From Caballeronia concitans (GTDB taxonomy: Bacteria > Pseudomonadota > Gammaproteobacteria > Burkholderiales > Burkholderiaceae): a stretch of 64,000 nt of DNA. Location of the stretch: positions 124,001 to 188,000 of the forward strand of contig NZ_FCNV02000008.1 of the NCBI RefSeq assembly GCF_001544615.1, read 5' to 3'. This document shows, one piece after another, positions 34,657-57,555 of the stretch; position 1 is the first letter of the stretch; every line of letters starts with the position of its first letter. The notes beneath the pieces were generated by a model. That model was not told the origin of the DNA and did no database searches. It saw only the letters and a list, made by a program, of their open reading frames with translations. The translations under genes and the position numbers were made by a program.

Positions 34657-34863
34657 TCAAACGATATACGGCCCGCTGATGCGCCCTTCGAAGATCGCGA
34701 TGTTGATCTGCCAGTCATCGACTGTGCCGGGCGTGCGGCCATCGACCAGGGCAGGCACGGATCGTCCGCCGACGACGCGCTGCATCTGTTCGCGTGAGAG
34801 CGTGGATTCCTTGAGGGATGCTGTGTCCAGCGGCAAATCTGCAATAACGAGAGTGCGTTGCAT
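34657..34863 (-). CDS. Small double-glycine-motif peptide
   Basis: A 68-aa product with AGGAG nine bases before the ATG. Residues 15-32 read SLKESTLSREQMQRVVGG, which has the shape of a double-glycine leader: helical, acidic, LS near -10, hydrophobic positions at -4 and -7 relative to GG. Cleavage after Gly32/Gly33 would release about 36 residues, RSVPALVDGR... ending ISGPYIV, without Cys. An early DLP segment (residues 9-11) also recalls leader-type small proteins in Burkholderiaceae. No C39 peptidase-transporter or modifying enzyme is nearby, so an exported-peptide role is an inference. Confidence 0.65.
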   Translation of the reverse strand: MQRTLVIADLPLDTASLKESTLSREQMQRVVGGRSVPALVDGRTPGTVDDWQINIAIFEGRISGPYIV

Positions 34864-35076
34864 GATGGTTCTCCTGGCGGGTAGCTTGATGTGACTCGAG
34901 CATTCACTGATGCTCGAGCGAGTTTTTGCAAGCGCTATGCCAATTTGCGCTGAGCGGCTTCCGACAAGGCGCTCGATGAAACAGTCCGCGCTTGATCGAC
35001 GCGCCACGCGGCGGTATGTTGGAGCAGCGCGAACACATTGACTCCCTGGTGTTGGCGCATTCAACGAGACCGGAAC

Positions 35077-37362: not shown

Positions 37363-39708
37363 CTAGTTCCACGCATAGCGCAAGCCAACCCATACGCCGC
37401 GCGGCGCACCAATGCCGAGAAACTGCTCGTTGACGGTGTCTGCGCCGTTGAACGTATGGTTCGGTCCGTTAAAGAAATTCTCTCCAAGAATGGCGACATT
37501 CGCATAGCGCTTGTTGAGCAGATTCTTGACCGTTGCATAGACCTGCAATTGCTTCGTGACGTTATAGGTCGTATCGAGATCGATCAGGAAATAACCGGCG
37601 ATGCTGCCATTGACGTCCTGGTTGTTCTCGTCGCCACGCGCGAAGATATTACTGCGGTAAATGAGATCGGTGCCGATGTTCCATCGCGAGATCGGGTTGT
37701 AATCCACGCGCATTTTCACTGTATTCGATGGAATGCCGGGAATGCGGTCGCCCGAATGCACGGTGATGTTGCCGTTATCGTCCGCGCTCGAATTGCTCGC
37801 GCTGCTTTCGGTCCATGTCGATCGATACGTCGCATTCACATAGCTATAGCTCGCGGCTACGCCGAGCGGTCCCCATTGCGTGCGCCCCGCAAGCTCGAAG
37901 CCCTGACGGCGCGTCTTGCCTACATTTTGGAAATAGCCGAGCGTGCTCGCCGCGCCCTGGCTGCTGACGAACTGGATGTCGTCCGAAAGCGTGGTGCTGT
38001 ACAGCGCGGCGCTCCATGTCGTCGCTTTGCCGATGTGTCCGCGCGCGCCTACTTCGAAGGTCCGCGAGATGACGGGCTTGAGTTCGGGATCGGCGATGAA
38101 GTCATTGGGCAGCGAGCAAGGCGCGTTCGGATCGGCGCATGCAAGTTCAATAGCTGTTGGCGAGCGCATGCCTTCGTTGTACGTGGCATAAGCGGTGAAC
38201 CACGGCGTCGGATTCCAGTTGAAACCTACTGCCGGATTGAAGCGCGAGAACGTGTGGCGTCCATCGAGCAAGGGTTGCGCGCCGCTTTCATCGCCGATAG
38301 TGGCTCTAGCCCAGTTATAGCGGCCCGCAAGCGTCATCGACCATTGCTCGGTGAATGACAGTGTGTTTTCGAAGTAAATGCCCCAGTTCTCATTGTGCGT
38401 CTTCGCGTCGGTCGTGAACACGAACGGACCAGTGCCGACGGTCGCGCGGCTATCCGTGAATTGCGCCGCCTGCGATGACTGCGTGAAATGCGAATTGGCG
38501 AAGTCGCCTGCCGCGCCGAGGACCAGTTGATTGTCCTTGCCGAAGAGCTTGTTGAGCAGCGTGAGTTGCAGGCTTGCGCCATAGCTGTCGGTGACGATCA
38601 CCGATTGATCGTTGGTGGCTTGAGTAAGATCGATATCGCCGTCGTCTTTGGTTTCGCCGTAGTTGTCGTTGACGTTGCTGCTCACGTTCTTGTTGCGATA
38701 GTGCCGGTAATAGAGGGTGCCGCTCAGTTCGACATTCGGCGAGAAATAGTGCTCGCCTGACAGCGTGATATAGCCGACCTGATTCTCATTGGTGTCGGGG
38801 AACGTGTACGCCTGCTTGTAGTTGTCGAGGAAAGAGCGCGGAATGGTCTGCGATCCGTTGAGCGTGTTGTCCGCGCCGCCCATCGAGAGGGAAATGGTGG
38901 TGTCGGCGTCGGTATAGCGGAGCTTGCCGAACGCCTGACGCAAACGGCTCGAATTTTGCGCGGCCCAGCCGTTGTCGTTGGTGACGTTCGCGGTGAAGTA
39001 ATAGTCGAGATTGCTGCCGATCACACCGCCTTGTTCGATCTGCGCCGACTTTCTGCCCCACGATCCGCCGCTTACATCGATATTGCCGCCGGGATTCGTG
39101 CGGCCGTTCTTCGTGGTGACCGCGACTGCACCGCCCAGCGTGTTCAGACCAAAGGTCGGATTGGAGCCGGGGATGATCTGCATGCTATTGATGGCGGCCT
39201 GCGGAATGAGGTCCCAGTTCACGACATCGCCGAACGGCTCGTTGATGCGCACGCCATCGAGAAAAACCGAAAGCCCTTGCGGCGTGCCGAGCAAGGGCGA
39301 CGCAGTGAAGCCGCGATAGTTGATGTCAGTTTGCGAAGGATTGCCTTGCGCGTCGTTGATATCCACGCTCACGACGTTCTTCTGCAGATAATCGGTAACG
39401 GTTGCGGAATGCTGCGCCTGGATTTCGTTGCCCTTGATGGTCTGCACGTTCGCAGGCACTTTCTCGAGCGGCGTGCCCACGCCGAGAAGCGGCGTCGTTC
39501 CCACGACGACAATGGTAGGCAGTTCGGTGTTCGGCGGCGCGCTCGCGGCGACAGGCGCAACGGCGGATGCAGGTGCATCGGGGGCGCTCGCCGTTTGCGC
39601 CCAGGCGCCGACAGTCATGCTTGCGAACGCGCCGCCGAACACGAGCCTGAGTCCCGCTCGGGGTTTGAACCGATGCGCGATCACGGACTTGCGCGGCATC
39701 CTCTTCAT
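37363..39708 (-). CDS. TonB-dependent outer-membrane receptor
   Basis: A 781-aa receptor that should import a scarce ligand with energy from TonB. It has a signal peptide to about AWAQ (residue 38), then the plug domain (about 65-195) with the TonB-box-like IVVVG start, VFLDGVRINEPFGD and NTLGGAVAVTTKNG. The 22-strand barrel ends in an aromatic-Asn motif (VGLRYAWN). No iron-siderophore genes are near. It lies beside PQQ, C1 and kinase genes, where methylotrophs can carry lanthanide-uptake receptors. CGGAGACGACA precedes the ATG, and tandem TTCTTTTAA words lie upstream. Confidence 0.88.
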   Translation of the reverse strand: MKRMPRKSVIAHRFKPRAGLRLVFGGAFASMTVGAWAQTASAPDAPASAVAPVAASAPPNTELPTIVVVGTTPLLGVGTPLEKVPANVQTIKGNEIQAQHSATVTDYLQKNVVSVDINDAQGNPSQTDINYRGFTASPLLGTPQGLSVFLDGVRINEPFGDVVNWDLIPQAAINSMQIIPGSNPTFGLNTLGGAVAVTTKNGRTNPGGNIDVSGGSWGRKSAQIEQGGVIGSNLDYYFTANVTNDNGWAAQNSSRLRQAFGKLRYTDADTTISLSMGGADNTLNGSQTIPRSFLDNYKQAYTFPDTNENQVGYITLSGEHYFSPNVELSGTLYYRHYRNKNVSSNVNDNYGETKDDGDIDLTQATNDQSVIVTDSYGASLQLTLLNKLFGKDNQLVLGAAGDFANSHFTQSSQAAQFTDSRATVGTGPFVFTTDAKTHNENWGIYFENTLSFTEQWSMTLAGRYNWARATIGDESGAQPLLDGRHTFSRFNPAVGFNWNPTPWFTAYATYNEGMRSPTAIELACADPNAPCSLPNDFIADPELKPVISRTFEVGARGHIGKATTWSAALYSTTLSDDIQFVSSQGAASTLGYFQNVGKTRRQGFELAGRTQWGPLGVAASYSYVNATYRSTWTESSASNSSADDNGNITVHSGDRIPGIPSNTVKMRVDYNPISRWNIGTDLIYRSNIFARGDENNQDVNGSIAGYFLIDLDTTYNVTKQLQVYATVKNLLNKRYANVAILGENFFNGPNHTFNGADTVNEQFLGIGAPRGVWVGLRYAWN

Positions 39709-39872: not shown

Positions 39873-40925
39873 ATGGATTCCGTGATGCGATCCGAATCCT
39901 TGCCCGCTCTCGCTGACGATCATTCCGCCCGCACGCCGCGCTCGACGGTGTCGCGTGATCTCGCCTGCGTGCTCGTCGTCACGCTCATCGCGGGCGCATG
40001 TTTCGCCATGTTCGATTTCAGTGAGTTGACTTATCACTGGACACGCAGCGCCGAGCGCTTTCAACTCGACGAGCTTCCGGCCACATTGGTCGTGCTTGCG
40101 CTCGGCTGCGCGTGGTTCGCATGGCGGCGCTATCAGGAAGCACAACGTGAAGTTCGCCGAAGCCGCGCGCTCGAGAAAGAAGCGGAACACCTGCTTGCTG
40201 AAAACCGGCGGTTGGCGAGTCAGGCAATCGGCGCGCAGGAAAGTGAGCGGCGTCATCTTGCGCGCGAACTGCACGATGAATTGGGCCAGTATCTCAACGC
40301 GATATCACTCGATGCCGGACGCATCCGCGATTTATCCATCGCGCGCGAGACGGAAATTCACCGGCTTTCTTTGGCGGTCATGCAAAGCGCGACGCATGTG
40401 TATCGCGAGATAGGCGGCATGATTCGCAAGCTACGACCCATTGGTCTCGATGAATTCGGCTTGCCCACTGCGCTGGAACATTGCATCGAAGGCTGGCGCG
40501 AGCGCTTGCCGCAAGCAGAATTCACGCTGGCGGTAGAAGGCGATTTCGATCATCTAAGCGATGCACTCAACATCGCGCTTTATCGGCTGGTGCAGGAAGG
40601 TTTGACGAACGTATCGAAGTTCGCGCGTCAATCGCGTGTCGAAATCTATCTGGTACGCACGCCGGAAAGCGAGCGCGGTCCGGGAGAGATCGTCGTCACG
40701 ATGGCCGACGATGGACCGGGCACGGACTTGTCGATACCGCGCAAGGGCCTGGGACTCGTCGGCATGCGCGAACGTGTCGAGGCGCTCGGCGGGGAATTCC
40801 ATATCGCAAGCAGCCCCGGCGAAGGCTTCCTCTTCTGCGCGCGCGTGCCCGCTCAAGCGGGGCTGCCGTGGCCTAGCGAGCCGAATGAAGGCGCGTCGGG
40901 TGCGCCCGTGAAATCCGCGAAATGA
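39873..40925 (+). CDS. NarX-like sensor histidine kinase
   Basis: A 350-aa kinase with two helices (about 30-46 and 70-86) around a short periplasmic loop of about 22 residues. A coiled coil precedes the HisKA_3 region with His134 in ARELHDELGQY. The HATPase domain has ADDGPGTDLS and GLGLVGMRERVEALGG. It has little sensory domain, so the signal is probably membrane-borne or delivered by a partner. Its 3' end overlaps the convergent LuxR regulator gene by 73 bp. That regulator is its probable partner. ATGs at 39873 and 39885 are both possible starts. Confidence 0.88.
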   Translation: MDSVMRSESLPALADDHSARTPRSTVSRDLACVLVVTLIAGACFAMFDFSELTYHWTRSAERFQLDELPATLVVLALGCAWFAWRRYQEAQREVRRSRALEKEAEHLLAENRRLASQAIGAQESERRHLARELHDELGQYLNAISLDAGRIRDLSIARETEIHRLSLAVMQSATHVYREIGGMIRKLRPIGLDEFGLPTALEHCIEGWRERLPQAEFTLAVEGDFDHLSDALNIALYRLVQEGLTNVSKFARQSRVEIYLVRTPESERGPGEIVVTMADDGPGTDLSIPRKGLGLVGMRERVEALGGEFHIASSPGEGFLFCARVPAQAGLPWPSEPNEGASGAPVKSAK

Positions 40926-41554
40926 AGCCCGAGTCGATTGGCAATCTGCGCAAGCTGCACGCCGTTATCCGCGCCGAATTTCTGACGTATCACCGATTGA
41001 TGATTGGCCACGGTCTTCTGACTCAGGCCCAACTTTTCCGCGATGCTCGGCAACGTGTAACCCTGCACGAGAAGACGCAGCACCTCGAACTCACGCGCGG
41101 ATAACTGCCGTCCGGGCGGTCCTTCCTGAATGGTCGCGCGCAACGCAAGCGCCTGCGAAATATCGGGGCTTAAATAGCAAATGCGACGCGCGACGGAACG
41201 CACCGCTTCGACGAGCACATCGGGTGCGCTTGCCTTGGTGACATAGCCGCGCGCGCCGGCATCGAGCGCACGGCGCACGAATATCGCTTCCTCGTGCACG
41301 CTGAAAATCAGCACGTGTGCATGAGGCTCGCGTGCCAGCATGCGCCGCATCGCTTCAATACCGCTTGCACCGGGCAGTGCAAGATCCATCACGACGACAT
41401 CCGGCTGCAATGCGCAAAACTTCTGGTAAGCCTGCGCCGCATCCGCCGCTTCGCCCGCGACGCTGACATCGGGACTCAATTCGAGCAGACGCTTGTAGCC
41501 TTCACGCACCACGGCGTGATCGTCCACCAGCAGCACCGAGATATCGGCGTTCAT
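40853..41554 (-). CDS. LuxR-family response regulator at the end of the pqq operon
   Basis: A 233-aa regulator. The receiver has acidic Asp11/Asp12 and phospho-acceptor Asp57 in VVVMDLALPG. The LuxR helix-turn-helix (about 150-205) contains LSAREFEVLRLLVQGYTLPSIAEKL and QKTVANHQSVIRQKFG. It starts two bases after pqqE and so should be co-transcribed with PQQ synthesis. Regulators of this type control PQQ-dependent ethanol and methanol oxidation in Pseudomonas and methylotrophs. The convergent kinase overlapping its 3' end is the likely partner. Confidence 0.88.
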   Translation of the reverse strand: MNADISVLLVDDHAVVREGYKRLLELSPDVSVAGEAADAAQAYQKFCALQPDVVVMDLALPGASGIEAMRRMLAREPHAHVLIFSVHEEAIFVRRALDAGARGYVTKASAPDVLVEAVRSVARRICYLSPDISQALALRATIQEGPPGRQLSAREFEVLRLLVQGYTLPSIAEKLGLSQKTVANHQSVIRQKFGADNGVQLAQIANRLGLHFADFTGAPDAPSFGSLGHGSPA

Positions 41555-41556
41555 GG

Positions 41557-42747
41557 CTATTCTTCTCCGACGTCGGGTCCATCCGTTCGATGCATGGAAG
41601 CGATGCGCCGCGAATTGGCATCGTTACGAAACACGATAGGCTGCTCCTGCGGCTCCTGTCTCATCGATGCTGCGCGCACCACTTCGATCACGCGTTCATG
41701 ATGCGCGGACTTGTCGCAAACGGGGTCGGCATTCGCGGGGTCTTGCGTGAGCAGATAAGCCTGGCAACGACAGCCGCCGAGGTCGATCGTCTTCTCGTCG
41801 CAACTGCGGCATGGCTCTTTCATCCAGCCAAAGCCGCGAAAGCGGTTGAACGCATCGCTTTCGTACCATATGTCCTTGAGCGATGTATCGGTGACATTGG
41901 GGAACGTGAGACCCGGAAGCGAGCGCGCGGTATGACACGGCAAGGCCGCACCATCGGGCGCAATGCCGAGAAACACCGAGCCCCATCCATTCATGCAGCG
42001 CTTGGGCCGGCGCTCGTAATAGTCAGGCACCACGAAGAAGATCTTGCACTTGTCGCCAATCTCTTTGCGATAGCTTTCCACCACCGCTTCCGCTTCCTGC
42101 AATTGTTCGGCGGTCGGCATGAGTTGCGCGCGGTTCGTATGCGCCCAGCCGTAGTACTGCGTGTTCGCCAGTTCGAGATACTCCGCGCCCATGTCGAGCG
42201 CCATGTCGATGATGCGTCCGATATGCGGCAGGTTATAGCGATGCAGCACGCAATTGAGCACCATCGGAAAGCCGTGCGACTTGATTAGATTCGCGACGCG
42301 CTTCTTGAGATCGAAAGTCTTCGTGCTCGATAAAAAATCGTTCAGCTCTTGAGTGGAATCCTGAAACGAGAGCTGAATGTGATCGAGGCCGGCGTCCTTG
42401 AGCGCGGTGATGCGCTTTTCAGTGAGTCCGATGCCCGACGTAATAAGGTTCGTATAAAAGCCCAGCTTGCGCGCTTCGCCGACGAGTGTTTCCAGATCAT
42501 CGCGCAACAGCGGCTCGCCGCCGGAAAAGCCGAGTTGCGCCGCGCCGAGCGCACGCGCCTGACGCAAGACATCGAGCCACTGCGCGGTGTCGAGTTCGCG
42601 CGAATGGTCCGTGTAATTCACCGGGTTGTAGCAGAAGACGCAATGCAACGGACAACGGTAAGTGAGTTCCGCGAGCAGCCACAAGGGCGGCGGAATGGCC
42701 ACGCCTTCATGTTCCGGCTTGGCGATGGGTTCGGACAGATCGGTCAT
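41557..42747 (-). CDS. pqqE: PqqA peptide cyclase PqqE (radical SAM)
   Basis: PqqE joins Glu and Tyr of the PqqA peptide by a carbon-carbon bond, the first step of PQQ synthesis. The 396-aa protein has the radical-SAM cysteines Cys32, Cys36 and Cys39 in TYRCPLHCVFCYNP, then GFSGGEPLLR, and a C-terminal SPASM region with CRSCDEKTIDLGGCRCQAY. It follows pqqD after 12 bp. PqqD delivers the peptide. The PqqA substrate is encoded near 55.7 kb, away from this operon. Confidence 0.96.
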   Translation of the reverse strand: MTDLSEPIAKPEHEGVAIPPPLWLLAELTYRCPLHCVFCYNPVNYTDHSRELDTAQWLDVLRQARALGAAQLGFSGGEPLLRDDLETLVGEARKLGFYTNLITSGIGLTEKRITALKDAGLDHIQLSFQDSTQELNDFLSSTKTFDLKKRVANLIKSHGFPMVLNCVLHRYNLPHIGRIIDMALDMGAEYLELANTQYYGWAHTNRAQLMPTAEQLQEAEAVVESYRKEIGDKCKIFFVVPDYYERRPKRCMNGWGSVFLGIAPDGAALPCHTARSLPGLTFPNVTDTSLKDIWYESDAFNRFRGFGWMKEPCRSCDEKTIDLGGCRCQAYLLTQDPANADPVCDKSAHHERVIEVVRAASMRQEPQEQPIVFRNDANSRRIASMHRTDGPDVGEE

Positions 42748-42759
42748 GCTTGCACCTCT

Positions 42760-43068
42760 TCACTCCAGCCAGCCACGCGCACGCGCACCGGCGATGAACG
42801 CGCGCACATCGTCGCCGATGCCTTTAGCGCTGAACGCCTGCTCCAGATCGGCGACGAGCGCGGGAATATCGCGCGTGCCGTCGCAACGAAGAAGAATTTG
42901 CGCGGCGCTTTGATTGAGCTTCACCATGCCTTCCGGATAGAGCAGCACATGCGCGTCCTGCGCCGGTTCCCATTGCAGACGAAAGAGGCGTTTGAGTTGC
43001 GGGCGCAATGTATCGTCCGGTGCTTCGACGGCTTCGTTTCTGCGCTCAGTCGGATTCGTATCGCTCAT
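42760..43068 (-). CDS. pqqD: PQQ synthesis peptide chaperone PqqD
   Basis: A 102-aa RiPP-recognition protein that binds PqqA and presents it to PqqE. The motif set is [34 protein letters not shown]-like, with a C-terminal winged-helix segment [18 protein letters not shown]. Its start overlaps the pqqC stop by four bases. Confidence 0.93.
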
Positions 43069-43823
43069 GCCGGGAATGCCTTTTCAATGGAATCGAGCAT
43101 GGTCCAAAGAATATCCAGCTTGAATTGCAGGATGTCGAGTGCGCGTTGCTGTTGCTCGCGCGTCTTGAAGTGCGCAAGCGTGACTTCTAGCCCATGTTCG
43201 ACATCGCGCTGCGCAAGCGAGACACGCGAGCGGAAATACGCAAGTCCTTCCGGTTCGATCCACGTGTAATGCTCGGGCCATGTCGCGAGCCGGTCCTTGT
43301 GGATTTGCGGCGCGAACATTTCCGTGAGCGACGAACATACTGACTCCTGCCACGGCGCGCGGCGCGCGAAATTCACGTACGCATCGACGGCGAAGCGCAC
43401 GCCCGGCGTCACGAGCTTGAGCAACCAGAGATCGTCGCGCGAGAGACCGACTGCATCGCCCAGACGCGCCCATGCTTCGATACCGCCCGGCTGATCGTCA
43501 TGGCCGTCGTGATCGAGAATGCGCAGCACCCAGCGGCGGCGCGTTTCGCGGTCAGGGCAATTCGACATCACCGCTGCGTCCTTGAGCGGGATGTTGATCT
43601 GATAGTAGAAGCGGTTCGCCACCCAGCCGCGAATCTGCTCGCGCGAGCATCCTCCGCTATTCATCTTCACGTTGAACGGATGATGAATGTGATACGCCGT
43701 GCCTTTCGCGCGCAGTTCTTCTTCGAACTGCTCGCGCGTCCACGCCGGGCCAGGCTCCTTCAATGCAGTGAAGTGCGGGCCGGTCGTGGGGTTCAGCATC
43801 GGCGAGAAAGCGTTGTCAGGCAT
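43065..43823 (-). CDS. pqqC: Pyrroloquinoline-quinone synthase PqqC
   Basis: Catalyses the last ring closure and oxidation to PQQ without a metal cofactor. The 252-aa protein has the PqqC hallmarks [32 protein letters not shown] and [17 protein letters not shown], with the active-site His residues kept. It sits between pqqB and pqqD in the operon. Confidence 0.96.
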
Positions 43824-43842: not shown

Positions 43843-44763
43843 TCATAGCTCGAAGGTCATGCCGTCGTGCGCGACTTCGATGCCATGCTCCGACAGCACG
43901 CGCCGTTCGGGACCGTCCTCGATCAGGATCGGATTCGTGTTGTTGATATGAATGAGCACCTTGCGCACGTCCGCGCGACCGATGGAATCGAGCACTTCGA
44001 TCATGCCGCCGGGGCCGCTTTGCGCGAGATGCCCCATGTCCCCGCCGGTCTTCTTCGTCAGGCCGAGGCGGATCATTTCGTCGTCGGTCCACACGGTGCC
44101 GTCGACGAGCAGGAGATCAGCGGTGCGCATTGCATCCAGCACATGCGGCTCCAGTGCGCCCAAACCCGGCGCATAGAACGCGCGCTTGCCCGAAGCGTTA
44201 TTCGTGAACATGAGGCCGATGTTGTCGCCCACTTCGGGGGCTTCGCGATGCGGCGAATAAGGCGGCGCCTTGCTCGAAAGCGGCAGCGCATCGATGCTCA
44301 CGCGCGGCAATTCGGGCACGCTAAGCGCGTTGCCATCCAGTGCGATGCGGCGATGCTCGACGCCGCAGTAATGCGAAAGAATCGAAGTGATCGGAAAGCC
44401 GGTCGACAGGTCTTGCCATACCGCATCGGTCGTATAGAGAGGCAAAGGCGCGCCGCGCTCGCGCAGCATCAAGAGACCGGTCACGTGATCGATCTGCGCA
44501 TCCATCGTGATGACAGCGGCGATGCCCGTATCGCGCACGCGGCGCGCGGGCTGCAATTCCGGATTCGCCGCGATCTGCGCGAGTATGTCCGGCGATGCGT
44601 TGACGAGCAGCCAGTCCTCGCCGTTGTCGCTGACCGCGATGGACGACTGCGTTCTCGCGCGTGCGGCGATGGTGCCGCGACGCACGCCCTCGCAATTGCG
44701 GCAGTTGCAGTTCCATTGCGGAAATCCGCCGCCTGCCGATGAACCCAGAACGCGAATTTTCAT
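43843..44763 (-). CDS. pqqB: PQQ biosynthesis protein PqqB
   Basis: A 306-aa metallo-beta-lactamase-fold hydroxylase acting on the cross-linked PqqA tyrosine. The start [21 protein letters not shown] is the family signature, followed by [17 protein letters not shown] and a C-terminal HINNTNPIL. It is normally preceded by pqqA, but only 22 bp separate it from the cytochrome b561 gene. pqqA is therefore not adjacent. Confidence 0.96.
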
Positions 44764-44785: not shown

Positions 44786-45355
44786 TCATGGCCACATTCT
44801 CCTCAAGAGCCCGTCTTTGTCGATGAGCTGATGTTTCATTGCGCCAAGGAAGTGAAGAACGACGAGCGCGGCCATGATCCATGCAATGTAGCCGTGAATG
44901 CCGAAGAACAGCTCGCGCATTGCCTTGTCGTCCCAGCCCCATTGTGGCAGAAGCACGCCCCAGAAGCGCGTGCCGTACTTGTTGAACGACGAGCCGAGAT
45001 AACCGGTAAGCGGCATCGCCACCATGCCAACATATAAAAGACCCTGCGTGATGCTCGCGGCGGCGCGTTGCCACGCTCCCATCGGCGGCAGAGGCGGCCG
45101 GCCATAAGCCAGGCGTACCATGATGCGGATCAGCACCAGCAGGAAAACCGTAAGGCCAAGCGACTTATGGAAGTTGATGACCGTCGACTTGAACGGCAGC
45201 CCGCGCGGCAGGCCCACCATGTAGAAACCGATGCACAGCATCGCGATGATGGCGATTGCAATGACCCAGTGAAGCGCGATGAGGGGCGGCGCGAAAGAAT
45301 CGTTCGCCACGCGCGACTGCTCGCGCGTGGCGGGTGGAGTCCTCACAGCGGTCAT
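44786..45355 (-). CDS. Cytochrome b561-type membrane haem protein
   Basis: A 189-aa four-helix di-haem protein that passes electrons across or along the inner membrane. The haem His residues are in [34 protein letters not shown] and [10 protein letters not shown]. It lies between fhcC (64 bp upstream) and pqqB (22 bp downstream) on the same strand. The position suggests electron transfer linked to PQQ-dependent or C1 oxidation, though no partner is proven. Confidence 0.88.
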
Positions 45356-45419: not shown

Positions 45420-46241
45420 TCATGAATTAGCGATCAGCAATTCCCCCCGTCCGTCCACGGCAAGATCGCCGGCAAAGCGCTTGGGCAGCGCGCGTTGTTC
45501 GAGCCTCGCAAACGGTTCGATCTCGTTAGCGAGCATGCGCGTGAGCAGCAGCCAGAAGACGTCGAAGCCGCGTCCGCCTTCAGTGAACGTGCTCGGGACA
45601 TTGGATGGCTTCGTCAATAGTACGACCGTGCCGCGCCGCATGCCATACGCAAGATGCGCGCCCGTCTCTCCCGCGATGCAGACCGTGCCCGCGACGATGC
45701 GCGATGCCGCGAAGTCCCCCGTATTTCCGCCGACGATTACGGTGCCGCGCCGCATGCGGTCGGCAAGGCGCGCGCCCACGTTGCCATGAACCGCAAGCAC
45801 GCCGCCCGTCATGCCTTCCATGTTGCCGGGCAGCGCGCCGGCCGCGAAATCGCCGACATTGCCCTGCACGTCGATGCGTCCGCCTTGCATTTCGCAAGCG
45901 GCAAAGCGGCCCGCGTTGCCTTGTATGCGCAACTCACCGCCTTTCATGCCGATGCCCGCGTAATCGCCCGCATTGCCATGCACGGTCAGCTTGCCTTCGC
46001 CTAGCGATGCGCCGATGCGGTCGAGCCACGCGACATCGCCTTCGATGTTCAGCGACGCGTCGGCGGCATCGGCGTGTGCAATATCAAAGAGATCGCCTAA
46101 AGCACATGTCTCGCCGTGGCCTTGCAAAGTGATTTCGGCCAATTCCTTCGAGGACATTTGCGCCAACGTATTGGGCAGTAAGTTCGACGCATCGACGCGA
46201 AAGCCCGGCGCATTTTTTACGCGCAACGTGATGGCGTTCAT
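45420..46241 (-). CDS. fhcC: Formyltransferase/hydrolase complex subunit C
   Basis: Subunit C of the Fhc complex, which turns formyl-H4MPT into formate via formylmethanofuran. The 273-aa protein is a right-handed beta-helix of Gly-Asn repeats (GNAGDYAGIGMKGGELRIQGNAGRFAA and following), homologous to FwdC/FmdC of methanogens and structural in role. It starts inside the fhcD stop (4-bp overlap). Confidence 0.94.
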   Translation of the reverse strand: MNAITLRVKNAPGFRVDASNLLPNTLAQMSSKELAEITLQGHGETCALGDLFDIAHADAADASLNIEGDVAWLDRIGASLGEGKLTVHGNAGDYAGIGMKGGELRIQGNAGRFAACEMQGGRIDVQGNVGDFAAGALPGNMEGMTGGVLAVHGNVGARLADRMRRGTVIVGGNTGDFAASRIVAGTVCIAGETGAHLAYGMRRGTVVLLTKPSNVPSTFTEGGRGFDVFWLLLTRMLANEIEPFARLEQRALPKRFAGDLAVDGRGELLIANS

Positions 46242-47188
46242 GCGCGACTCCCGCCAATGCCCGCCGACAACTCATGCAGCTTGAAGTGATAAGGCCCGAG
46301 CTTGCCGCCATAGTTTCCCGCCGATATGCGCAGCACGCCGCCCGCGCGCCCTATGGATGTCGCCGCGGCGATGCCCGCTGTCATTGCCGCGCCGACGTCG
46401 GCATCGGTGAGGCCGTCGATCACGATCTCGAGCACGCATGCAACCTCGGGTGTCAGCTCGCTCTTCTTCGATAAGCCGACGAGCGTGGGACAGAACGCGT
46501 CATTCGTGGATGCCGTCGCACCTTTGTACTTCGAGCCGATCTTCGATCCCGACCGGACCACGCCGCCCGGAAAGGGCGTGATGATATTGGGCAATGCATG
46601 CATCGCGGTCACTGCACTTTCGGCCGCGTGCAATGCGCTGTCGATATCGCGCGCAAGGAAGAGTAAGTTGCCGCCGCCGACTGCCTTGACCGTTGCAGTG
46701 AAATCTTCGCAAACGAACTCGCCGTCCATGACCGGCACGCGCCAGTAACGTGTCGAGCCGAGCACTTTCGATATCTGAAAGCCGTCGCCAAAGAAGCGCA
46801 GGCCCGCGCCGAGCGGTGCGTTGTCGGAAAGCGGCGCGCGGCTCGTTGAAGGATCGATGCCGCCATATACGGCCGTAGTCGGGCACGTGAGCACGCACTG
46901 ACCGACGCGTCGCGCGATTTGTTTAGCCAATTCTTTAGACGATACGGCGAATATCAACACCGATACGCCTGGACGTCCATCGGGCGTTTCATTACCGCTC
47001 AAATCGCGTTCGATGCCGGCTTCGCATCCGCAGTCGATGACGGACGTTGCAAAGCCTGTGAGTGAGTTCGCTGCATGGCGCGCCCATGTCGATGTATGCG
47101 CGGTGATGACGAGACGCGTCGCCTTCATCGGAAAGGCTTCGGCGAAGGTGTCATCGATTTGCGTGTCGTTGATGCGCATGGTGGTCAT
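46238..47188 (-). CDS. fhcD: Formylmethanofuran:H4MPT formyltransferase
   Basis: Transfers the formyl group between H4MPT and methanofuran in formaldehyde oxidation. The 316-aa Ftr protein has the DDTFAEAFPMKATRLVITA start, CPTTAVYGGID, and a C-terminal ISAGNYGGKLGPYHFKLHEL. I use the ATG at 47188, which overlaps the fhcA stop (ATGA). A nearby ATG at 47179 gives the shorter family N-terminus, and one at 47200 would be longer. Gene order B-A-D-C is compact, with 4-bp overlaps throughout. Confidence 0.95.
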   Translation of the reverse strand: MTTMRINDTQIDDTFAEAFPMKATRLVITAHTSTWARHAANSLTGFATSVIDCGCEAGIERDLSGNETPDGRPGVSVLIFAVSSKELAKQIARRVGQCVLTCPTTAVYGGIDPSTSRAPLSDNAPLGAGLRFFGDGFQISKVLGSTRYWRVPVMDGEFVCEDFTATVKAVGGGNLLFLARDIDSALHAAESAVTAMHALPNIITPFPGGVVRSGSKIGSKYKGATASTNDAFCPTLVGLSKKSELTPEVACVLEIVIDGLTDADVGAAMTAGIAAATSIGRAGGVLRISAGNYGGKLGPYHFKLHELSAGIGGSRA

Positions 47189-48876
47189 CGTCGTTCGCAT
47201 GGGACGCGCAAGAGCTTGCCGCCATTGTTGACCGAGTCCATTTCGTCGTCGCCGATAGCGATGTTTTCGAACCTCGATGCGAGATTCGCCTGCGCGTATT
47301 CGCGCACACGCGCTTCGATGGAGCGGTCGTAGTCGGGACGCACGTAATGGATGCCGCCCGTTGGCGTCTTGAGCAAGGTGCCGTCGCGTGCGATGAGTTC
47401 GCCGTCCTTGAACACGAACGCGGGCGACGTGAACATGCGCTCGCGATTCGCGTCTTCGCGATACACCGCGATATCCGCCGCCGCACCTGCGCCCAGATGG
47501 CCGCGATCCTTGAGACCCAAGAGACGCGCGGGACCCGCGCGCGTGATGATCGCGATCTCGTATAGCGAGAATTCACGCGTGATTTCGCTCAGCACGCTGG
47601 CGGCTTTGGCATCGGCATGTAGCTTGTCGAGTTGTTCGTCGCGGAACGGCTTGTCAGTAAGCAGGCGGATCAGATGCGGATAACTCGTGAAGGGCGCGCC
47701 GTTCGGATGATCGGTCGTCATCGAGACACGCCACAGATCGTCGACGAGCAGAAAGATTTCCAGCCCGATGATCCATTGCAGCGCATTGACGAAACTTTCT
47801 TCGCGATACCGAAACGGTACGACGCCGCAGCCGCCGTCGCATTCGATATCGCCGAGCACCCACTTACGCGGGTGGGCAAGCGGCGCATTGCGGAACTGCA
47901 TCATGGTGTCGCCGGATGCGGAGACGGTCTGGCCGAACATGATCTGCCCGACATCGATGGTCACGTTGGGCCGCGCATTGACCGCTTCGGCAATCGCGCG
48001 CGCGCCCGAAGAGAATTTGCGCGCGCCTTCGGTTCCATAGCTATGAAACTGAATATGCGTGAGATGGATGGGCAGGCCATCGGATGCGTCCATCGTCGCG
48101 ATGGTCGATTGCACATTGCCCGGCACGCCCAGATTGCTCGCATGCACATGCAACGGATGCGGCACCTGCAACTCACTCAGCGCACGCGTCAACGTTCTCA
48201 GTACATCGCGCGGCGTGATGCCGTAATGCACGTGTGCTTCATCGAGATCGAGTGAACGTTGATTGAACTTGAATGCGGATATACCGCCGGGATTCACCAC
48301 CTTGACGCCGAGCGCCTTGTTCGCATCGATGGTCCAGCCCACGTAATCGCGCATGTGCTCGAAGTCTTCGTGCGCGGCGAGCATTTGCAGAAAGAGTTCG
48401 TCGTTGCCCATCATCACGTAGGCGCCGTGATCGATGATCGGCGTATCGCCCATTTCCAGATGCGTGTGGCGCGCATTCGATGCGACCATTGCCGGCTCGA
48501 ATGCGGCCGTATAGCCCATTTCCGCGTAGCGATAGCCGGTAGCAAGCGTTCCGGGCGTGCATGTGCCGCATGAAGGCAGACGCATGTAGCGGCCTTCGTC
48601 GGGCTTGTCGGGTACGGCGCGCGCATCGTTGCGATGATCTTCCGGCAAGAGCAGGCGAGAGAGATTCGTCTTGCCGCCGCCGATATGCGAATGGAGGTCG
48701 ATTCCGCCCGCCATCACGATCATGCCGCTTGCGTCGAAATCGCGTTCGGGCGCGATGCTTTCGCCCTCAGCATCATCGACGATTCGGCCATCGCGAATAT
48801 AGAGATCGCGACGTTCGCCATCGATGCCATTGGCCGGATCATAAACAACGCCGCCTTTGATGCGCGAGAGCGTCAT
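47185..48876 (-). CDS. fhcA: Formylmethanofuran hydrolase subunit A
   Basis: The catalytic subunit of the Fhc complex, a zinc amidohydrolase-fold protein that releases formate from formylmethanofuran. The 563-aa protein has metal ligands His62 and His64 in IDLHSHIGGG and PLHVHASNLG, and a VSMTTDHPNGAPF segment for the active-site Asp. It is homologous to FmdA/FwdA but works in the oxidative direction in bacteria. The stop overlaps the fhcD start. Confidence 0.95.
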   Translation of the reverse strand: MTLSRIKGGVVYDPANGIDGERRDLYIRDGRIVDDAEGESIAPERDFDASGMIVMAGGIDLHSHIGGGKTNLSRLLLPEDHRNDARAVPDKPDEGRYMRLPSCGTCTPGTLATGYRYAEMGYTAAFEPAMVASNARHTHLEMGDTPIIDHGAYVMMGNDELFLQMLAAHEDFEHMRDYVGWTIDANKALGVKVVNPGGISAFKFNQRSLDLDEAHVHYGITPRDVLRTLTRALSELQVPHPLHVHASNLGVPGNVQSTIATMDASDGLPIHLTHIQFHSYGTEGARKFSSGARAIAEAVNARPNVTIDVGQIMFGQTVSASGDTMMQFRNAPLAHPRKWVLGDIECDGGCGVVPFRYREESFVNALQWIIGLEIFLLVDDLWRVSMTTDHPNGAPFTSYPHLIRLLTDKPFRDEQLDKLHADAKAASVLSEITREFSLYEIAIITRAGPARLLGLKDRGHLGAGAAADIAVYREDANRERMFTSPAFVFKDGELIARDGTLLKTPTGGIHYVRPDYDRSIEARVREYAQANLASRFENIAIGDDEMDSVNNGGKLLRVPCERR

Positions 48877-50144
48877 GACGATGACCTCGCGGCGCTGATC
48901 ATTTCGCCGACGACAGCGGCGACGCTCGGCAAGCCTGCATTGCGTGCGGGCACGATCGGCACGACCACCGATGCATCGACGCGAAAGAGATGTCCGCTGC
49001 TATCCATGCCAGGCGTCGCGACGGGTATGAATACGGTGGGTGCTTTGCGTTCAGCGAGCATCGTGGCGGGGTGGCCGAGGATGATGACGGGCACGTCGTC
49101 GTCGAGCGAAGAGGGCAGCGGTTGCGGCTCGAAACTCGATATCCACAGGAACGTATCGATCTCCTTGCGACGCAACATATCGTCGGTGCGATAACGATGC
49201 GGATCATGATCGAGCGGCAGACCGTACGCGATGCGCGTGCGCAGCGGAAAGCCCGAGAGCCACGTCACAGTCTGGTTGACCGTGAGCGCGCCGTCGTCGC
49301 CGGTGAGGGCGAGTGCGCCTGCTCGCACCGTACGGTTCATGGTCTTGACGATGCGATTGATTGCTTCGATAGCGAGCGCCGCGTGCGGAGTCGGCAATGC
49401 GGCGGGCTCGTAGATGAACGCGGTATAGCGTGCGGCGTGGATGCGCTTGATCAGCGCGTCGAGTGCATGCGCGGTGCGCGGGTCGGAGAGCGCGTCGGCG
49501 CTGCGGCCTTCGACGAGTGCGGACCAGAGTGCGAGTATGTCGAAGGTATCGGCGTCTTCGAGGATGACGTCGGCATCCGTGGCGGCTGCATGAGCGGCTT
49601 TGCATCCGACGAAGACGATATTCGCTTGACGTTCGGGTTCGAGCACGCGTTCATAGAAGCGCGGATACCGGCGTGATGGCTCGCATGCGATGACGACGAT
49701 GAGATCCGCGCGCGAGCGTATTTCGGAGAGCGTGGTGAAGAGCGCGCCGCGATCCTGGAGTGCGAGCGTGCTGGCGGCGAGTGAGTCGCCGTGCATGTGA
49801 TCGACGATGGCGCCGCTGTGTGCGGCGAGTTCATAGAGCGCGCGAGCGCCGGCTACGTCGGTGGCGAGTCCGCTGAAGAGCGGCCGACGTGCGTGCGACA
49901 GGATTTCCGCGACACGCGAGAGCGCCGACGCGAGATCGGTGTCGTGGGCGTCGATCTGGGGACGGCGGCTGCCGTCGTGCTCGCTGAATGTCGCAAGCGC
50001 TTGCGTCATGCGTGGACACGCGGTGTTTGACGCTTCTGCGCGCGCGTCGGCGGTGTCGGTCAACGTGATGTCTTCGCATAGCAGCGGGCAGAATGGACAG
50101 GTCCAGGTTTTTTTTGCTTGCGCGGGCGTTTGAGTGGGGGGCAT
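48873..50144 (-). CDS. fhcB: Formyltransferase/hydrolase complex subunit B
   Basis: A 423-aa homologue of the molybdopterin-binding FwdB/FmdB subunit. Bacterial members have lost redox function and serve as structural partner of FhcA. The N-terminal Cys16, Cys19 and Cys23 (TCPFCPLLCEDI) that bind a cluster in methanogens are present, while the later part is shortened. First gene of the operon; its promoter must lie in the 36 bp before the large inverted repeat or within it. Confidence 0.92.
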   Translation of the reverse strand: MPPTQTPAQAKKTWTCPFCPLLCEDITLTDTADARAEASNTACPRMTQALATFSEHDGSRRPQIDAHDTDLASALSRVAEILSHARRPLFSGLATDVAGARALYELAAHSGAIVDHMHGDSLAASTLALQDRGALFTTLSEIRSRADLIVVIACEPSRRYPRFYERVLEPERQANIVFVGCKAAHAAATDADVILEDADTFDILALWSALVEGRSADALSDPRTAHALDALIKRIHAARYTAFIYEPAALPTPHAALAIEAINRIVKTMNRTVRAGALALTGDDGALTVNQTVTWLSGFPLRTRIAYGLPLDHDPHRYRTDDMLRRKEIDTFLWISSFEPQPLPSSLDDDVPVIILGHPATMLAERKAPTVFIPVATPGMDSSGHLFRVDASVVVPIVPARNAGLPSVAAVVGEMISAARSSS

Positions 50145-50872
50145 GGTCGGCGAGGTTTAGCAACCTTTATGCCGATATTTTTCGCTGGCGCTCGCGTTTC
50201 GGGTTTGCTTCGTTTATTCGCGTCGGTCTATTAGGTCGCCCCTCCCCGGGGCGGGGGTCACTTTCTTTGCTGCTGCAAAGAAAGTAACCAAAGAAAGCAG
50301 CTTTTCTGGCCCAAAGCACTGACTGTGTGGTCACTCCGTAGAACGAGATTGGCACTCAGCTTGACACAGCCTTGAATCACCTTCCGCGCCCACTGAGCGC
50401 CACGTCCTCCGAGCCCCCTGGCTCGTTAACACCGAGCGTGCGCTGGCGCGTCGCGTAACGCATAGCGTAATTTTCGAGTCGAGCGAAGCGTCCCGCTGGT
50501 TTTGTCGAGCCGAGGGGCTCGGAGGACGTTAGTCGTCAGCGGGCGTGGAGGGTGATTCAAGGCTCTATCAAGCTGAGTGCCGATCTCGTTCTACCGAGTG
50601 CACCGTCAGTCTGAACCGCGGGAAGAGAAGCTGCTTTCTTTGGTTACTTTCTTTGCAGCAGCAAAGAAAGTGACCCCCGCCCCGGGGAGGGGCGCACTAA
50701 TAGACCGACGCGAAAAAACGAAGAAACCAGAAAACCCGAGCGCGAGCGAACTTTAGACCGACGCGAAAAGAACAAACCGACAACTGATTGAAACACACTG
50801 TCACGCCAAGGAAGCACCGCAACAAAAAAACGCGAGCCAGGCGAGCCAAAACCCGGTGGCATAAAAATTGAG
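50145..50872. other. 728-bp intergenic region carrying the large inverted repeat
   Basis: This lies between fhcB and the HisA-like gene, both leftward. Only the first 35 bp and the last 120 bp are outside the inverted repeat. Short frames inside the repeat are not genes. The last part (50750-50872) is AT-rich, with GCGAGCC direct repeats and an A-run at about 50824-50830, but no hairpin. Confidence 0.6.
50180..50749. repeat. Large inverted repeat, arms about 285 bp
   Basis: The two halves (about 50180-50464 and 50467-50749) are close reverse complements. The best-kept cores are CGCCCCTCCCCGGGGCGGGG and CTTTCTTTGCTGCTGCAAAG blocks, a CGAGCC/GGCTCG pair near the centre, and TTCGCGTCGGTCTA (50217-50230), whose complement is at 50701-50714 and again at 50754-50767. 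There is no transposase frame. It looks like a MITE-like or intergenic repeat family member; AAAGAAAGTAACC words of this kind recur in Burkholderiaceae. Copy number cannot be tested here. Confidence 0.8.
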
Positions 50873-53730: not shown

Positions 53731-54318
53731 ATGTGGGTGGTCAAGATCGGGGGAAGCCTGAGTCACGATCCGGCGCTGCGCGAATGGCTGATGCGGCTAT
53801 GGGAAGTGGGCGGCGGGCGCGTCGTGATCGTGCCGGGCGGCGGAGATTTCGCGGATGCGGTGCGCCAGTATCAGCGCGAATGGGGCTTCGACGATCTCGC
53901 GGCTCACAACATGTGCCTGCTCGCGATGGCGCAATACGCGATCCTCATGCAAGGCGTCGTGCCCGAGCTCGTGCTTGCATCGAATGAAGAACGCATACGC
54001 CGCGCATTACGCGACGGCCGCGTGGCCATATGGGTGCCGACGGACCTCATGCGCACGACGCCCGACTCGATGACCAACTGGGACACCACATCCGACAGCC
54101 TCGCCGCATGGCTTTCCACGACGCTCAACGCGGAACGTCTGATGATCGTGAAATCATGCGATGTCGAAGCGCACGCGCCGCTCGAAGCGCTCGCCGCGAA
54201 TGGCATCGTCGACCGGCGTTTTCCCGCTTACGTGCGCGACGCGAATTATCTCGTCGAAGTCTTCAGCAAAGGCGATGCATCGCGCATGAGAGAGAGGCTG
54301 CTCGCGTTTCAGGCCTGA
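53731..54318 (+). CDS. Amino-acid-kinase-fold protein (MfnE-like)
   Basis: A 195-aa member of the aspartate/glutamate/uridylate kinase fold. WVVKIGGSLS is the phosphate-binding start and VIVPGGGDFADAVR the substrate loop; SCDVEAHAPLE follows later. Archaeal MfnE phosphorylates the aminomethylfuran phosphate intermediate to a diphosphate. It is 4 bp after the MfnF-like gene. Its last 10 bases overlap the end of the convergent mfnB. Confidence 0.82.
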   Translation: MWVVKIGGSLSHDPALREWLMRLWEVGGGRVVIVPGGGDFADAVRQYQREWGFDDLAAHNMCLLAMAQYAILMQGVVPELVLASNEERIRRALRDGRVAIWVPTDLMRTTPDSMTNWDTTSDSLAAWLSTTLNAERLMIVKSCDVEAHAPLEALAANGIVDRRFPAYVRDANYLVEVFSKGDASRMRERLLAFQA

Positions 54319-55016
54319 GCGGCCATGCGTTCGCCATGCAACGCACGCGCCCACTGCTGCACGCGCTGCGGATCGAGACGGCCCGTGCGGCCTTCGCGTT
54401 CATCGCATAGCGCGCCTCTGAAGCCCGCGATATCCGGCGCAAGCGCGCGGATTCTATCCAGGTCCGACCAGCCGAGCGAACCGGCAAGCGCGGTCATCGT
54501 GCCGCGCGCGCGTGCCTGTGCCATGCATTCCGCCAACGTCGCGACATCGACGCAATCGAACAGCGTGCGGCCGTTCTTGCTCGCCGTATCGAACACGATG
54601 CCGACGAAGCCGAGTTGCGCAGCAAGCGTCGCGAGTTCGCGATCCACGCCTTCATCGGATAGCAGCACGGGCACGACCGACGCAGGCAAACCCGCGAGAT
54701 GACGCAAGCATTCGGCGGCGCGCGGTCCCGGCGCGACACCGACCTTCACGTAATCGACGCCCGCAGCCGCGACTTCCAGCACGCGATGCGTGATCTCGTC
54801 GAGCGCATCGTTCGGCAAGTCGCCGATGGTCGCGCTGATCGGCCTCACCGCATATTGCGCCCGCAACGCACGCACGATGCGCGCGATGTCGTCCATCGCG
54901 ACGCCGCCGAGCGCGCCTGCACGCGGCTCCTTCAAATCGATGAGTTCGGCTCCGGCTTGAGCGGCATCGAATGCTTCATCCGCTGAGCGAACGCTCGCGA
55001 GCAAGGCGGTCATCAT
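54309..55016 (-). CDS. mfnB: (5-formylfuran-3-yl)methyl phosphate synthase MfnB
   Basis: Makes the furan building block of methanofuran from two glyceraldehyde 3-phosphates. The 235-aa barrel has Lys29 in AELIDLKEPRAGALGG, Lys91 in DYVKVGVAPGP, and Lys147 in FDTASKNGRTLFD, matching the catalytic lysines of the archaeal enzyme. ATGs at 55016 and 55013 adjoin; GGAG stands just before. It follows the DUF447 gene by 19 bp on the same strand. Confidence 0.88.
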   Translation of the reverse strand: MMTALLASVRSADEAFDAAQAGAELIDLKEPRAGALGGVAMDDIARIVRALRAQYAVRPISATIGDLPNDALDEITHRVLEVAAAGVDYVKVGVAPGPRAAECLRHLAGLPASVVPVLLSDEGVDRELATLAAQLGFVGIVFDTASKNGRTLFDCVDVATLAECMAQARARGTMTALAGSLGWSDLDRIRALAPDIAGFRGALCDEREGRTGRLDPQRVQQWARALHGERMAAQA

Positions 55017-55035
55017 CCAACTCCATGAAATTGCG

Positions 55036-55602
55036 TCATTCACTCGGTTTTGCGCGATGTTGTTCGATGGCCTGCAAGAGCCAGTTCCATGCAGTGCGTT
55101 CCGCATCGCCCGCGGTTTTGTCGATGGCGATACGCAGATAGGCAATCTCGCTATCCACTTTTTCGGGCGGCAACATGAAGAGCCGGCTCACGAGAATCGC
55201 CCCTTCAACGACAGCCGCTTGCGCACGATTGAAGCCCGGAAAAGGCGCATGCGTTTCGCGATGCACGCATGCCATGCGCAATACGGGACGCGTTTCGTCG
55301 TCGCGCAGTTCGCTCAAGCGGAGTTCCGTATGCGCGAGCGTATCGGCAAGACGCACGCTCTGCACTTGCGTTGCGACGACCGTCGGCCAGTCGCGTTGAA
55401 TGCCCGTCACGCAGCCCGCAAACACGCGTACGTCCGTCGTCGTGTTGATGACGGCGCTTTGCGTCGCGACGATGTTGTCCAGCGTGACCGATGGACGGAA
55501 CGGCGCAAGAATCGCGAAGCCTTCTTCGAAACGCACGCCCATCGGCGCGATATGCGGCCGCCCATCGCGGTCCGCGGTCGTGACGATGGTCTCGTAGATC
55601 AT
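55036..55602 (-). CDS. DUF447-family protein of the C1 cofactor cluster
   Basis: A 188-aa protein with a flavin-reductase-like split barrel. Recognisable parts are MIYETIVTTADRDGRPHIAPMGVRF, FRPSVTLDNIVATQSAVINTT and an AQAAVVEGAILVSRL helix. DUF447 genes are found with archaeal-type C1 genes in methylotrophs and in methanogens; the reaction is not established. Start at 55602; the frame runs upstream across pqqA on a different phase, but that part is not coding in this frame. It is 58 bp downstream of pqqA. Confidence 0.82.
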   Translation of the reverse strand: MIYETIVTTADRDGRPHIAPMGVRFEEGFAILAPFRPSVTLDNIVATQSAVINTTTDVRVFAGCVTGIQRDWPTVVATQVQSVRLADTLAHTELRLSELRDDETRPVLRMACVHRETHAPFPGFNRAQAAVVEGAILVSRLFMLPPEKVDSEIAYLRIAIDKTAGDAERTAWNWLLQAIEQHRAKPSE

Positions 55603-55660
55603 GATCGAAATTGAAGCCGCACGAAGCGTCGAGGCGATGCCCCGTGCGGGCTGATCCGCT

Positions 55661-55735
55661 TTAACGCGTGGCGATATACATCGTGATTTCGAAGCCAAAG
55701 CGCATGTCGGTGAAGCTCGGTGTCGTCCATTGCAT
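55661..55735 (-). CDS. pqqA: PQQ precursor peptide PqqA
   Basis: A 24-codon gene encoding MQWTTPSFTDMRFGFEITMY and then IATR before TAA. Glu16 and Tyr20 are the E-x3-Y pair that PqqE joins to make PQQ, and the W-T-x-P start and R-x-G-F-E context match PqqA. AAGGAG precedes the ATG. PqqA genes normally sit directly before pqqB; here it is about 11 kb upstream and heads the DUF447-mfnB genes, on the same strand. No other pqqA was seen in the window. Translation and motif are certain; the role is inferred from family knowledge. Confidence 0.95.
   Translation of the reverse strand: MQWTTPSFTDMRFGFEITMYIATR

Positions 55736-57555
<1,820 letters not shown>

Follow-up and report, generated by a model that had tools for sequence, protein, structure and literature searches.

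An intact, conserved pqqA gene with a predicted sigma-54 promoter lies apart from pqqBCDE in Caballeronia concitans

In silico analysis of a 64,000-nucleotide stretch of the Caballeronia concitans genome (contig NZ_FCNV02000008.1, positions 124,001 to 188,000; hereafter the window), coupled with profile searches of related genomes, identified a 24-codon pqqA gene, encoding the precursor peptide of pyrroloquinoline quinone (PQQ), which is intact, strongly constrained and preceded by a predicted sigma-54 promoter element. In the canonical arrangement pqqA stands directly before pqqB; this is not so here, the two genes lying 10.9 kb apart on the same strand with genes of one-carbon (C1) metabolism between them, in agreement with the distance of about 11 kb given in the initial annotation of the window. 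It is likely that this pqqA, which we term the class A copy, is functional, feeds a single PqqBCDE maturation set and is transcribed from its own sigma-54 promoter in one regulon with the maturation genes. Precursor and maturation genes are probably split but co-regulated: because the pqqA run and the run that begins with fhcB and ends with pqqBCDE carry the same promoter class, they probably represent one regulon on separate transcripts.

The translation of the class A gene, MQWTTPSFTDMRFGFEITMYIATR followed by a stop codon, comprises 24 amino acids including E16 and Y20, the glutamate and tyrosine spaced by three residues which become PQQ and which are retained in all 115 genus copies fetched. 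The peptide scored 47.1 bits against TIGR02107 (cutoff 20) and 45.2 bits against Pfam PqqA PF08042 (cutoff 21.1), and a ribosome site, AAGGAG, is located immediately 5' of the gene, which bears out the intact E16-x3-Y20 motif and good ribosome site of the initial annotation. At 75 bp the gene is full length, as the curated PqqA models, 21 and 19 positions long, are both matched end to end. A whole-genome profile search of the source genome (G000; 6.17 Mb, 47 contigs) returned two pqqA matches and one each of pqqB and pqqE over cutoff, and a PqqB, C, D, E set was present by family profile matches. The second pqqA, MKWETPSFTDMRFGFEITMYIATR, is an orphan copy on contig C14 (class B), where the surrounding 19.9 kb (L003) held no match to pqqBCDE or PQQ-dehydrogenase queries, the sole PQQ alcohol dehydrogenase match on that contig being approximately 146 kb away. 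A second pqqA adjoining pqqB in this genome was ruled out by the same search, neither of the two places being there, and this agrees with the measured 22-bp gap between cytochrome b561 and pqqB in which the initial annotation had judged that no further copy fits. That annotation had proposed a genome-wide PqqA scan and had named a second pqqA near a PQQ dehydrogenase gene as evidence against its reading; the scan yielded the one further copy on C14 and no such pair in the source genome, and for the genus at large it bears on the point that 28 of the 115 classified copies have a quinoprotein alcohol dehydrogenase or an activator relative at a distance of at most 3.2 kb.

The class A gene occupies the same place in much of the genus. 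Among 58 Caballeronia genomes, which being related are not independent events, 49 carry pqqA, with 117 matches in all; 115 of these (G048:C5 and G049:C2 were left out) were fetched and classified by neighbourhood into class A, placed as in the window (45 copies), class B, by a GGDEF/EAL-type gene or its neighbours as for the C14 copy (35), class C, with a quinoprotein alcohol dehydrogenase or sigma-54 activator relative no more than 3.2 kb away (28), and class D, with pqqB within 1.5 kb (5), two copies being unclassified. pqqA is located immediately before DUF447 in 45 of the 49 pqqA-bearing genomes, DUF447 being the next gene at every class A locus; the placement before DUF447 and mfnB given in the initial annotation was confirmed by family matches in the window and recurs in 45 of the 58 genomes. 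The upstream neighbour is a divergent cbbL at 38 of the 45 loci, a same-strand DUF6513 homologue (methanopterin-type) at six (L161, L163, L165, L015, L023 and L212) and no queried gene at one; in those six genomes the cbb genes were therefore lost or relocated, or never stood beside pqqA. Of the 58 genomes, 48 have both pqqA and pqqB (over cutoff), none has pqqB without pqqA, one has pqqA without pqqB (a shortened class B copy) and nine have neither. The order of divergent cbbL, pqqA, DUF447 and mfnB was found at all 20 named Burkholderiaceae loci retrieved via MfnB, a set that overlaps the 58 genomes (some genomes appear both as named records and under a G handle), and no pqqA match was found at the 22 remaining loci, from Alphaproteobacteria and Derxia. 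Across other genera of the family, 17 of 19 DUF447-bearing genomes (all that were found among 299 searched) have this order; approximately 2.2 kb separates cbbL from pqqA in L198, and the out-of-genus DUF447 loci L196 and L206 had no pqqA in the fetched stretch. The 45 class A genes comprise 33 distinct DNA sequences with 0, 2 and 16 variable sites at codon positions 1, 2 and 3 (24 each), 37 of the 45 peptides are identical, and the ratio of nonsynonymous to synonymous polymorphism (pN/pS) is 0.010, the ratio being calculated on full-length matches only (33 of 35 copies in class B and 27 of 28 in class C). At a number of class C loci (L126, L127, L129-L134, L138, L148 and similar ones) pqqA and a second PqqD-like gene stand between an activator relative and a quinoprotein alcohol dehydrogenase, a gene order that brings precursor, chaperone, enzyme and activator together as one small unit; L135 (G004:C63) holds a second, divergent pqqBCDE set adjoined by pqqA and a quinoprotein alcohol dehydrogenase.

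Sigma-54 promoters are characterized by a GG-N10-GC -24/-12 element with likeness to TGGCAC/TTGC, and upstream regions were scored accordingly (maximum 23.5, with a line at 21). The element was present in all 45 class A upstream regions with GGCA-N6-TTGC invariant, as compared to 17 of 1800 dinucleotide shuffles and none of the 45 opposite strands at the same score, and among the out-of-genus class A loci (L086 and L200 apparently being the same contig) 17 of 19 scored at least 21 and all 19 at least 20.3. The line of 21 was also reached by 25 of 28 class C and 3 of 5 class D regions; for class B a sigma-54 site was rejected, there being near-matches in several but only 3 of 35 at or above the line (shuffles for classes B, C and D: 7/1400, 16/1120 and 0/200). 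When 24 gene families of the region (1-40 loci each) were scored in the same manner, fhcB stood out with 26 of 27 loci, DUF447 scored once in 40, this single site being pqqA's own, and the remainder gave none; even at 20.3 region genes other than fhcB reached at most 2 of 27. The same conserved element precedes xoxF, our name by gene context for a methanol/ethanol-family PQQ dehydrogenase, at 29 of 30 loci with a score of 20.5, below the line (30 of the 46 genomes with xoxF were covered). The initial annotation had set the precursor gene apart from the maturation enzymes and next to the cbb promoter. The first of these views was not upheld, as the pqqBCDE run has its own conserved element of the same promoter class, and cbb adjacency proved dispensable as a link, cbbL being replaced or absent at 7 of 45 class A loci where the element stays, while cbbL itself had the element at 0 of 38 loci. 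The source genome has two rpoN genes, and the strict pattern occurs in it at 9 sites as compared to 5 in a backward control, which is weak alone. No sigma-70-like site was found in 54200-56200, an absence that says little given that shuffles yield 0.4.

A second conserved feature upstream of the class A gene is a block that is a candidate site for an enhancer-binding protein. Its core, CACTTTG, lies within 400 nt upstream in 43 of 45 class A, 0 of 35 class B, 2 of 28 class C and 1 of 5 class D copies, and a stricter form was present in 52 of 64 stretches of 230 nt. The same gene cluster encodes a GAF-AAA-Fis activator approximately 3.4 kb past the window end (C22:191406-193433), which we regard as the best candidate to act from this block; an orthologue is present only in genomes with a class A gene (43 of the 58 searched), and the C1 genes are eroded in G005 and G018, the two class A genomes where it was not found. 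Every one of the 45 class A genomes has xoxF, interrupted by two internal stops in G005, and G044 has a partial xoxF. The idea of an activator box shared by the pqqA, fhcB and xoxF upstream regions was rejected: the fhcB palindrome in the window, which we take to be a genus repeat, lacks conservation among loci, and the block of xoxF is a different one.

Gene losses in relatives tie pqqA to pqqBCDE and not to the methylofuran genes. G033, a genome listed at 100% completeness, no longer has the C1 and cbb genes at this locus but keeps pqqA, approximately 360 bp upstream of it and cyb561-pqqBCDE. Its pqqA and cytochrome b561 genes are separated by 744 bp, in which stretches survive that can be aligned with the pqqA-DUF447 spacer and the start of DUF447, with mfnF and with the spacer between fhcC and cytochrome b561 of relatives; the gap is a deletion, because these remnants persist, and they rule out the possibility, suggested by G033, that C1 genes were inserted between an older pqqA and pqqB. 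A broken DUF447 piece also lies on another contig of G033 (L208, G033:C4:514846-514992), DUF447 being the only gene searched elsewhere there. In G005 fhcA, fhcC, mfnB and DUF447 are broken, and in G014 fhcA, fhcC, mfnB, fhcD, the HisA-like gene and mfnF; both retain intact pqqA and pqqBCDE. G018 has an intact pqqA with one internal stop in pqqB, pqqA is missing from G025 and G044, in which pqqB is broken, and a shortened class B copy is all that G045 has. As a 75-bp gene could survive by chance, the weight lies on the intact pqqBCDE.

The 58-bp gap between pqqA and DUF447 contains a conserved hairpin. Wherever the start of DUF447 could be located in class A (44 loci), folding of the gap was on average better than that of mononucleotide shuffles (mean z -2.0), and an intrinsic terminator after pqqA was rejected as none was found, a weak negative given that shuffles average 2.5. 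As no terminator was found, the hairpin is read as a structure for RNA end-stabilisation or partial termination that would favour precursor over downstream genes, and it probably keeps a short pqqA RNA more abundant than the DUF447-mfnB part.

Taken together, these observations are consistent with a scheme in which the class A gene would supply PqqA peptide to the cell's single maturation set, being transcribed from its own sigma-54 promoter with the GAF-AAA-Fis protein as the putative enhancer-binding protein acting from the conserved block. The same promoter class would drive the fhcBADC-cyb561-pqqBCDE run, in which gaps do not exceed 64 bp and which may be a single transcript from fhcB to pqqE, and probably xoxF also, such that precursor, maturation enzymes, the PQQ-using methanol dehydrogenase and formaldehyde oxidation would form one regulon. 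The predicted short pqqA RNA would then provide precursor in excess over the enzymes.

Three other accounts of the gene have to be considered. The initial annotation made pqqA the head of a C1-cofactor transcript, its dose following methylofuran synthesis from a shared promoter and uncoupled from the maturation enzymes. The same-strand run of pqqA, DUF447 and mfnB stood, with its short gap here, its recurrence at all loci found via MfnB and the lack of any terminator-like site between pqqA and DUF447; the proposed control did not, as the pqqBCDE run has its own sigma-54 element and relatives with lost or broken mfnB or DUF447 retain pqqA together with pqqBCDE, and we judge this account improbable. 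Far less credible is the published view that pqqA is degraded and unnecessary, the precursor coming from another copy or from none. It is stated in the passages of PMC9088363 on the PQQ genes, where pqqA of the symbiosis-associated region is called a degraded fragment of approximately 100 bp, unnecessary, with degradation predating the bug association, and a second pqqA does exist in the source genome. The class A gene shows neither the truncation nor the relaxed constraint expected of a pseudogene, six of the 49 genomes with pqqA have no other class, and none of the 48 genomes in which pqqB exceeds the cutoff lacks pqqA; as far as sequence can decide, the reading of this copy as a fragment is wrong. 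The remark in the initial annotation that so short a gene is easily overlooked was apt, two papers on the region having missed the class A pqqA or misinterpreted it.

A more serious alternative, possible if on balance somewhat doubtful, is that, in most conditions, the bulk of the precursor comes from the orphan class B copy, class A adding peptide only in C1 growth. Class B occurs in 35 of the 49 pqqA-bearing genomes (shortened in two, G018 and G045), its peptide is equally conserved (pN/pS 0.007, 33 genes), it mostly lacks the sigma-54 element, and there is precedent, in the passages of the methylotroph papers compared below, for several pqqA copies responding differently. Class A is, however, more widespread and is the sole copy in some genomes, and the two accounts are compatible rather than exclusive. 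Several points weigh against a class A gene under sigma-54 control as the source of the peptide. Class B could supply much of it, and pqqA was reported dispensable in M. extorquens AM1 (Toyama and Lidstrom 1998, as cited), where, according to passages of one paper, orphan copies were not examined. By an estimate from break density, that so short a gene (75 bp) persists while the genome erodes is weak evidence alone, and breaks in draft genomes may be sequencing errors. The weights of the -24/-12 score were set by us from the consensus, its line was drawn after the class A scores had been seen, and the -12 box of the fhcB element ends 14 nt before the annotated ATG in the window. No common form of the upstream block was found before fhcB or xoxF. 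G005 and G018 retain class A pqqA with no activator found, G005 being also without the block, and G028, G031 and G033 have the element without the GAF-AAA-Fis activator, G028 having an activator relative beside pqqA; in these genomes another activator therefore serves or the promoter is dead. As to the hairpin, 4 of the 44 gaps fold no better than shuffles (z about zero or above), and the 9-pair stem kept in 25 aligned gaps has little covariation, with one of nine pairs changed on both sides. We nevertheless continue to regard a functional class A gene with its own sigma-54 promoter as likely.

Control of this kind may be much wider than the genus. A class-wide search, in which 46 of 321 genomes had pqqA, placed the element at 14 of the best-scoring 29 pqqA loci, as compared to 9 of 1740 shuffles and none of 29 opposite strands. 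We tentatively suggest, as an idea that could well fail, that PqqA supply is sigma-54-controlled well beyond Caballeronia, with several pqqA loci, each with its own PQQ enzyme and enhancer-binding protein, feeding one maturation set; class A would be paired with xoxF and class C with the quinoprotein alcohol dehydrogenase, and the choice of precursor gene would set the timing of PQQ synthesis.

The features of the window on which this account draws are collected in Table 1.

Table 1. Coordinates, strand and basis of assignment of pqqA, its predicted control elements and neighbouring genes in the window
Feature	Coordinates	Strand	Basis or remark
pqqA (class A copy), PQQ precursor peptide, 24 codons	55661-55735	-	Translation; TIGR02107 and Pfam PqqA matches
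Predicted sigma-54 -24/-12 element, TGGCATAGCGCTTGCG	55808-55823	-	GG-N10-GC; 72 nt before pqqA ATG
Conserved upstream block, candidate enhancer-binding-protein site, GGGACACTTTGCTGCGTTTTCGTCACAGTG	55851-55880	-	Core CACTTTG in 43/45 class A copies
pqqA-DUF447 gap, conserved hairpin, no U-tract	55603-55660	-	58 bp
DUF447 family gene	55036-55602	-	PF04289 87.9 bits; PF20766 61 bits
mfnB, next after DUF447	54309-55016	-	PF04476 189.5 bits
Predicted sigma-54 element before fhcB, CGGCATAAAGGTTGCT	50159-50174	-	26/27 loci
fhcB, start codon uncertain	48873-50144	-	TIGR03129 204 bits, below its cutoff of 327.8
fhcA, fhcD, fhcC (formylmethanofuran dehydrogenase/transferase subunits)	45420-48876	-	Profile matches
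Cytochrome b561 (cyb561)	44786-45355	-	Profile matches; 22 bp before pqqB
pqqB	43843-44763	-	TIGR02108 406.5 bits, cutoff 245
pqqC	43065-43823	-	TIGR02111 339.6 bits, cutoff 240
pqqD	42760-43068	-	TIGR03859 108 bits, cutoff 46
pqqE, radical S-adenosylmethionine PqqA cross-linking enzyme	41557-42747	-	Only pqqE over cutoff in the genome
Response regulator, directly after pqqE	40853-41554	-	Profile match; 2-bp gap
cbbL (RuBisCO large subunit), divergent neighbour of pqqA here	56065-57555	+	Profile match

Between mfnB and fhcB are mfnD-like, mfnF-like and mfnE-like genes on the plus strand followed by a HisA-like gene on the minus strand, and past the window end the cluster continues with Fae, Mch, methanopterin-cofactor genes, the sigma-54 activator and the methanol/ethanol-family PQQ dehydrogenase. 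Near the pqq genes a TonB-dependent receptor (37363-39708, minus strand) gave a sub-cutoff match to PqqU, the PQQ importer (111.7 bits against 1200), its best match being a heme receptor model, likewise sub-cutoff, and a beta-propeller protein (35773-36834, plus strand) gave a sub-cutoff match to a PQQ-associated type (151.3 against 287.3). A 68-amino-acid open reading frame (34657-34863, minus strand), peptide-leader-like with a GG motif after its N-terminal part, is preceded at 34927-34942 (minus strand) by a sigma-54 element, TGGCATAGCGCTTGCA, nearly identical to that of pqqA; it had only sub-cutoff family matches, including leader models of ribosomally synthesized and post-translationally modified peptides (E 0.034 and 0.11).

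The PQQ genes of the region have been singled out, in passages of the papers on it, as a possible contribution of the gut symbiont to stinkbug hosts. Provided that pqqA is intact and required, precursor and pqqBCDE are both encoded in the region, and that idea could be put directly to the test in a culturable symbiont by deleting a single gene and so abolishing or limiting PQQ. For the coordination of PQQ synthesis with XoxF and formaldehyde oxidation, the sigma-54 element provides an explanation open to test, and it suggests precursor genes as control points; should the wider sigma-54 proposal be true, a cell would time PQQ synthesis by which precursor gene is switched on.

The region of the window appears from its gene content to be the stinkbug symbiosis-associated region, reported in 53 of 229 Burkholderiaceae genomes (PMC9088363, Stillson et al. 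2022) and also described in PMC7397029 (Takeshita and Kikuchi 2020). The likeness lies in pqqB-E, reported there as up-regulated in symbiosis; in the relevant passages of these papers pqqA is uncounted (four PQQ synthesis genes in PMC7397029) or called degraded, no promoter is described and the region is not read as a C1 pathway, whereas here pqqA is intact and strongly constrained. The main texts of a C. insecticola transposon sequencing paper and of an inferior-symbiont paper do not mention PQQ. Within the Creative Commons-licensed PubMed Central papers searched, sigma-54 control of pqqA was not found in print. Azospirillum brasilense provides a parallel in PQQ-linked alcohol oxidation under sigma-54, its quinoprotein alcohol dehydrogenase being controlled by sigma-54 and a LuxR-type regulator according to a title cited in PMC12826043; the target named in that title is the dehydrogenase, whereas here the element precedes the precursor gene and the pqqBCDE run. 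The canonical pqqABCDE operon, for example Pseudomonas pqqFABCDE as treated in passages of PMC12997753, has the same core genes and products, but is a co-transcribed operon for which AgmR is named as the likely regulator, whereas C1 genes intervene here. Methylotrophs with multiple or orphan pqqA genes (passages of PMC4109929, PMC9851590, PMC11317620 and PMC10848612) resemble the present case in having several pqqA loci and mostly one maturation set; their orphan copies respond to growth conditions, and PqqA supply is reported to be rate-determining in Methylovorus (cited in PMC11317620). The difference is that most copies here fall into fixed-neighbourhood classes, with a sigma-54 element in two of the three main ones, and that the methylotroph passages compared give no promoter analysis. 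Several pqqA copies served by one maturation set are thus already known from methylotrophs; new within the literature searched are the intact pqqA as against the printed statement, the recurrence of its placement across genus and family, and the presence of a sigma-54 element upstream of both pqqA and the pqqBCDE run.
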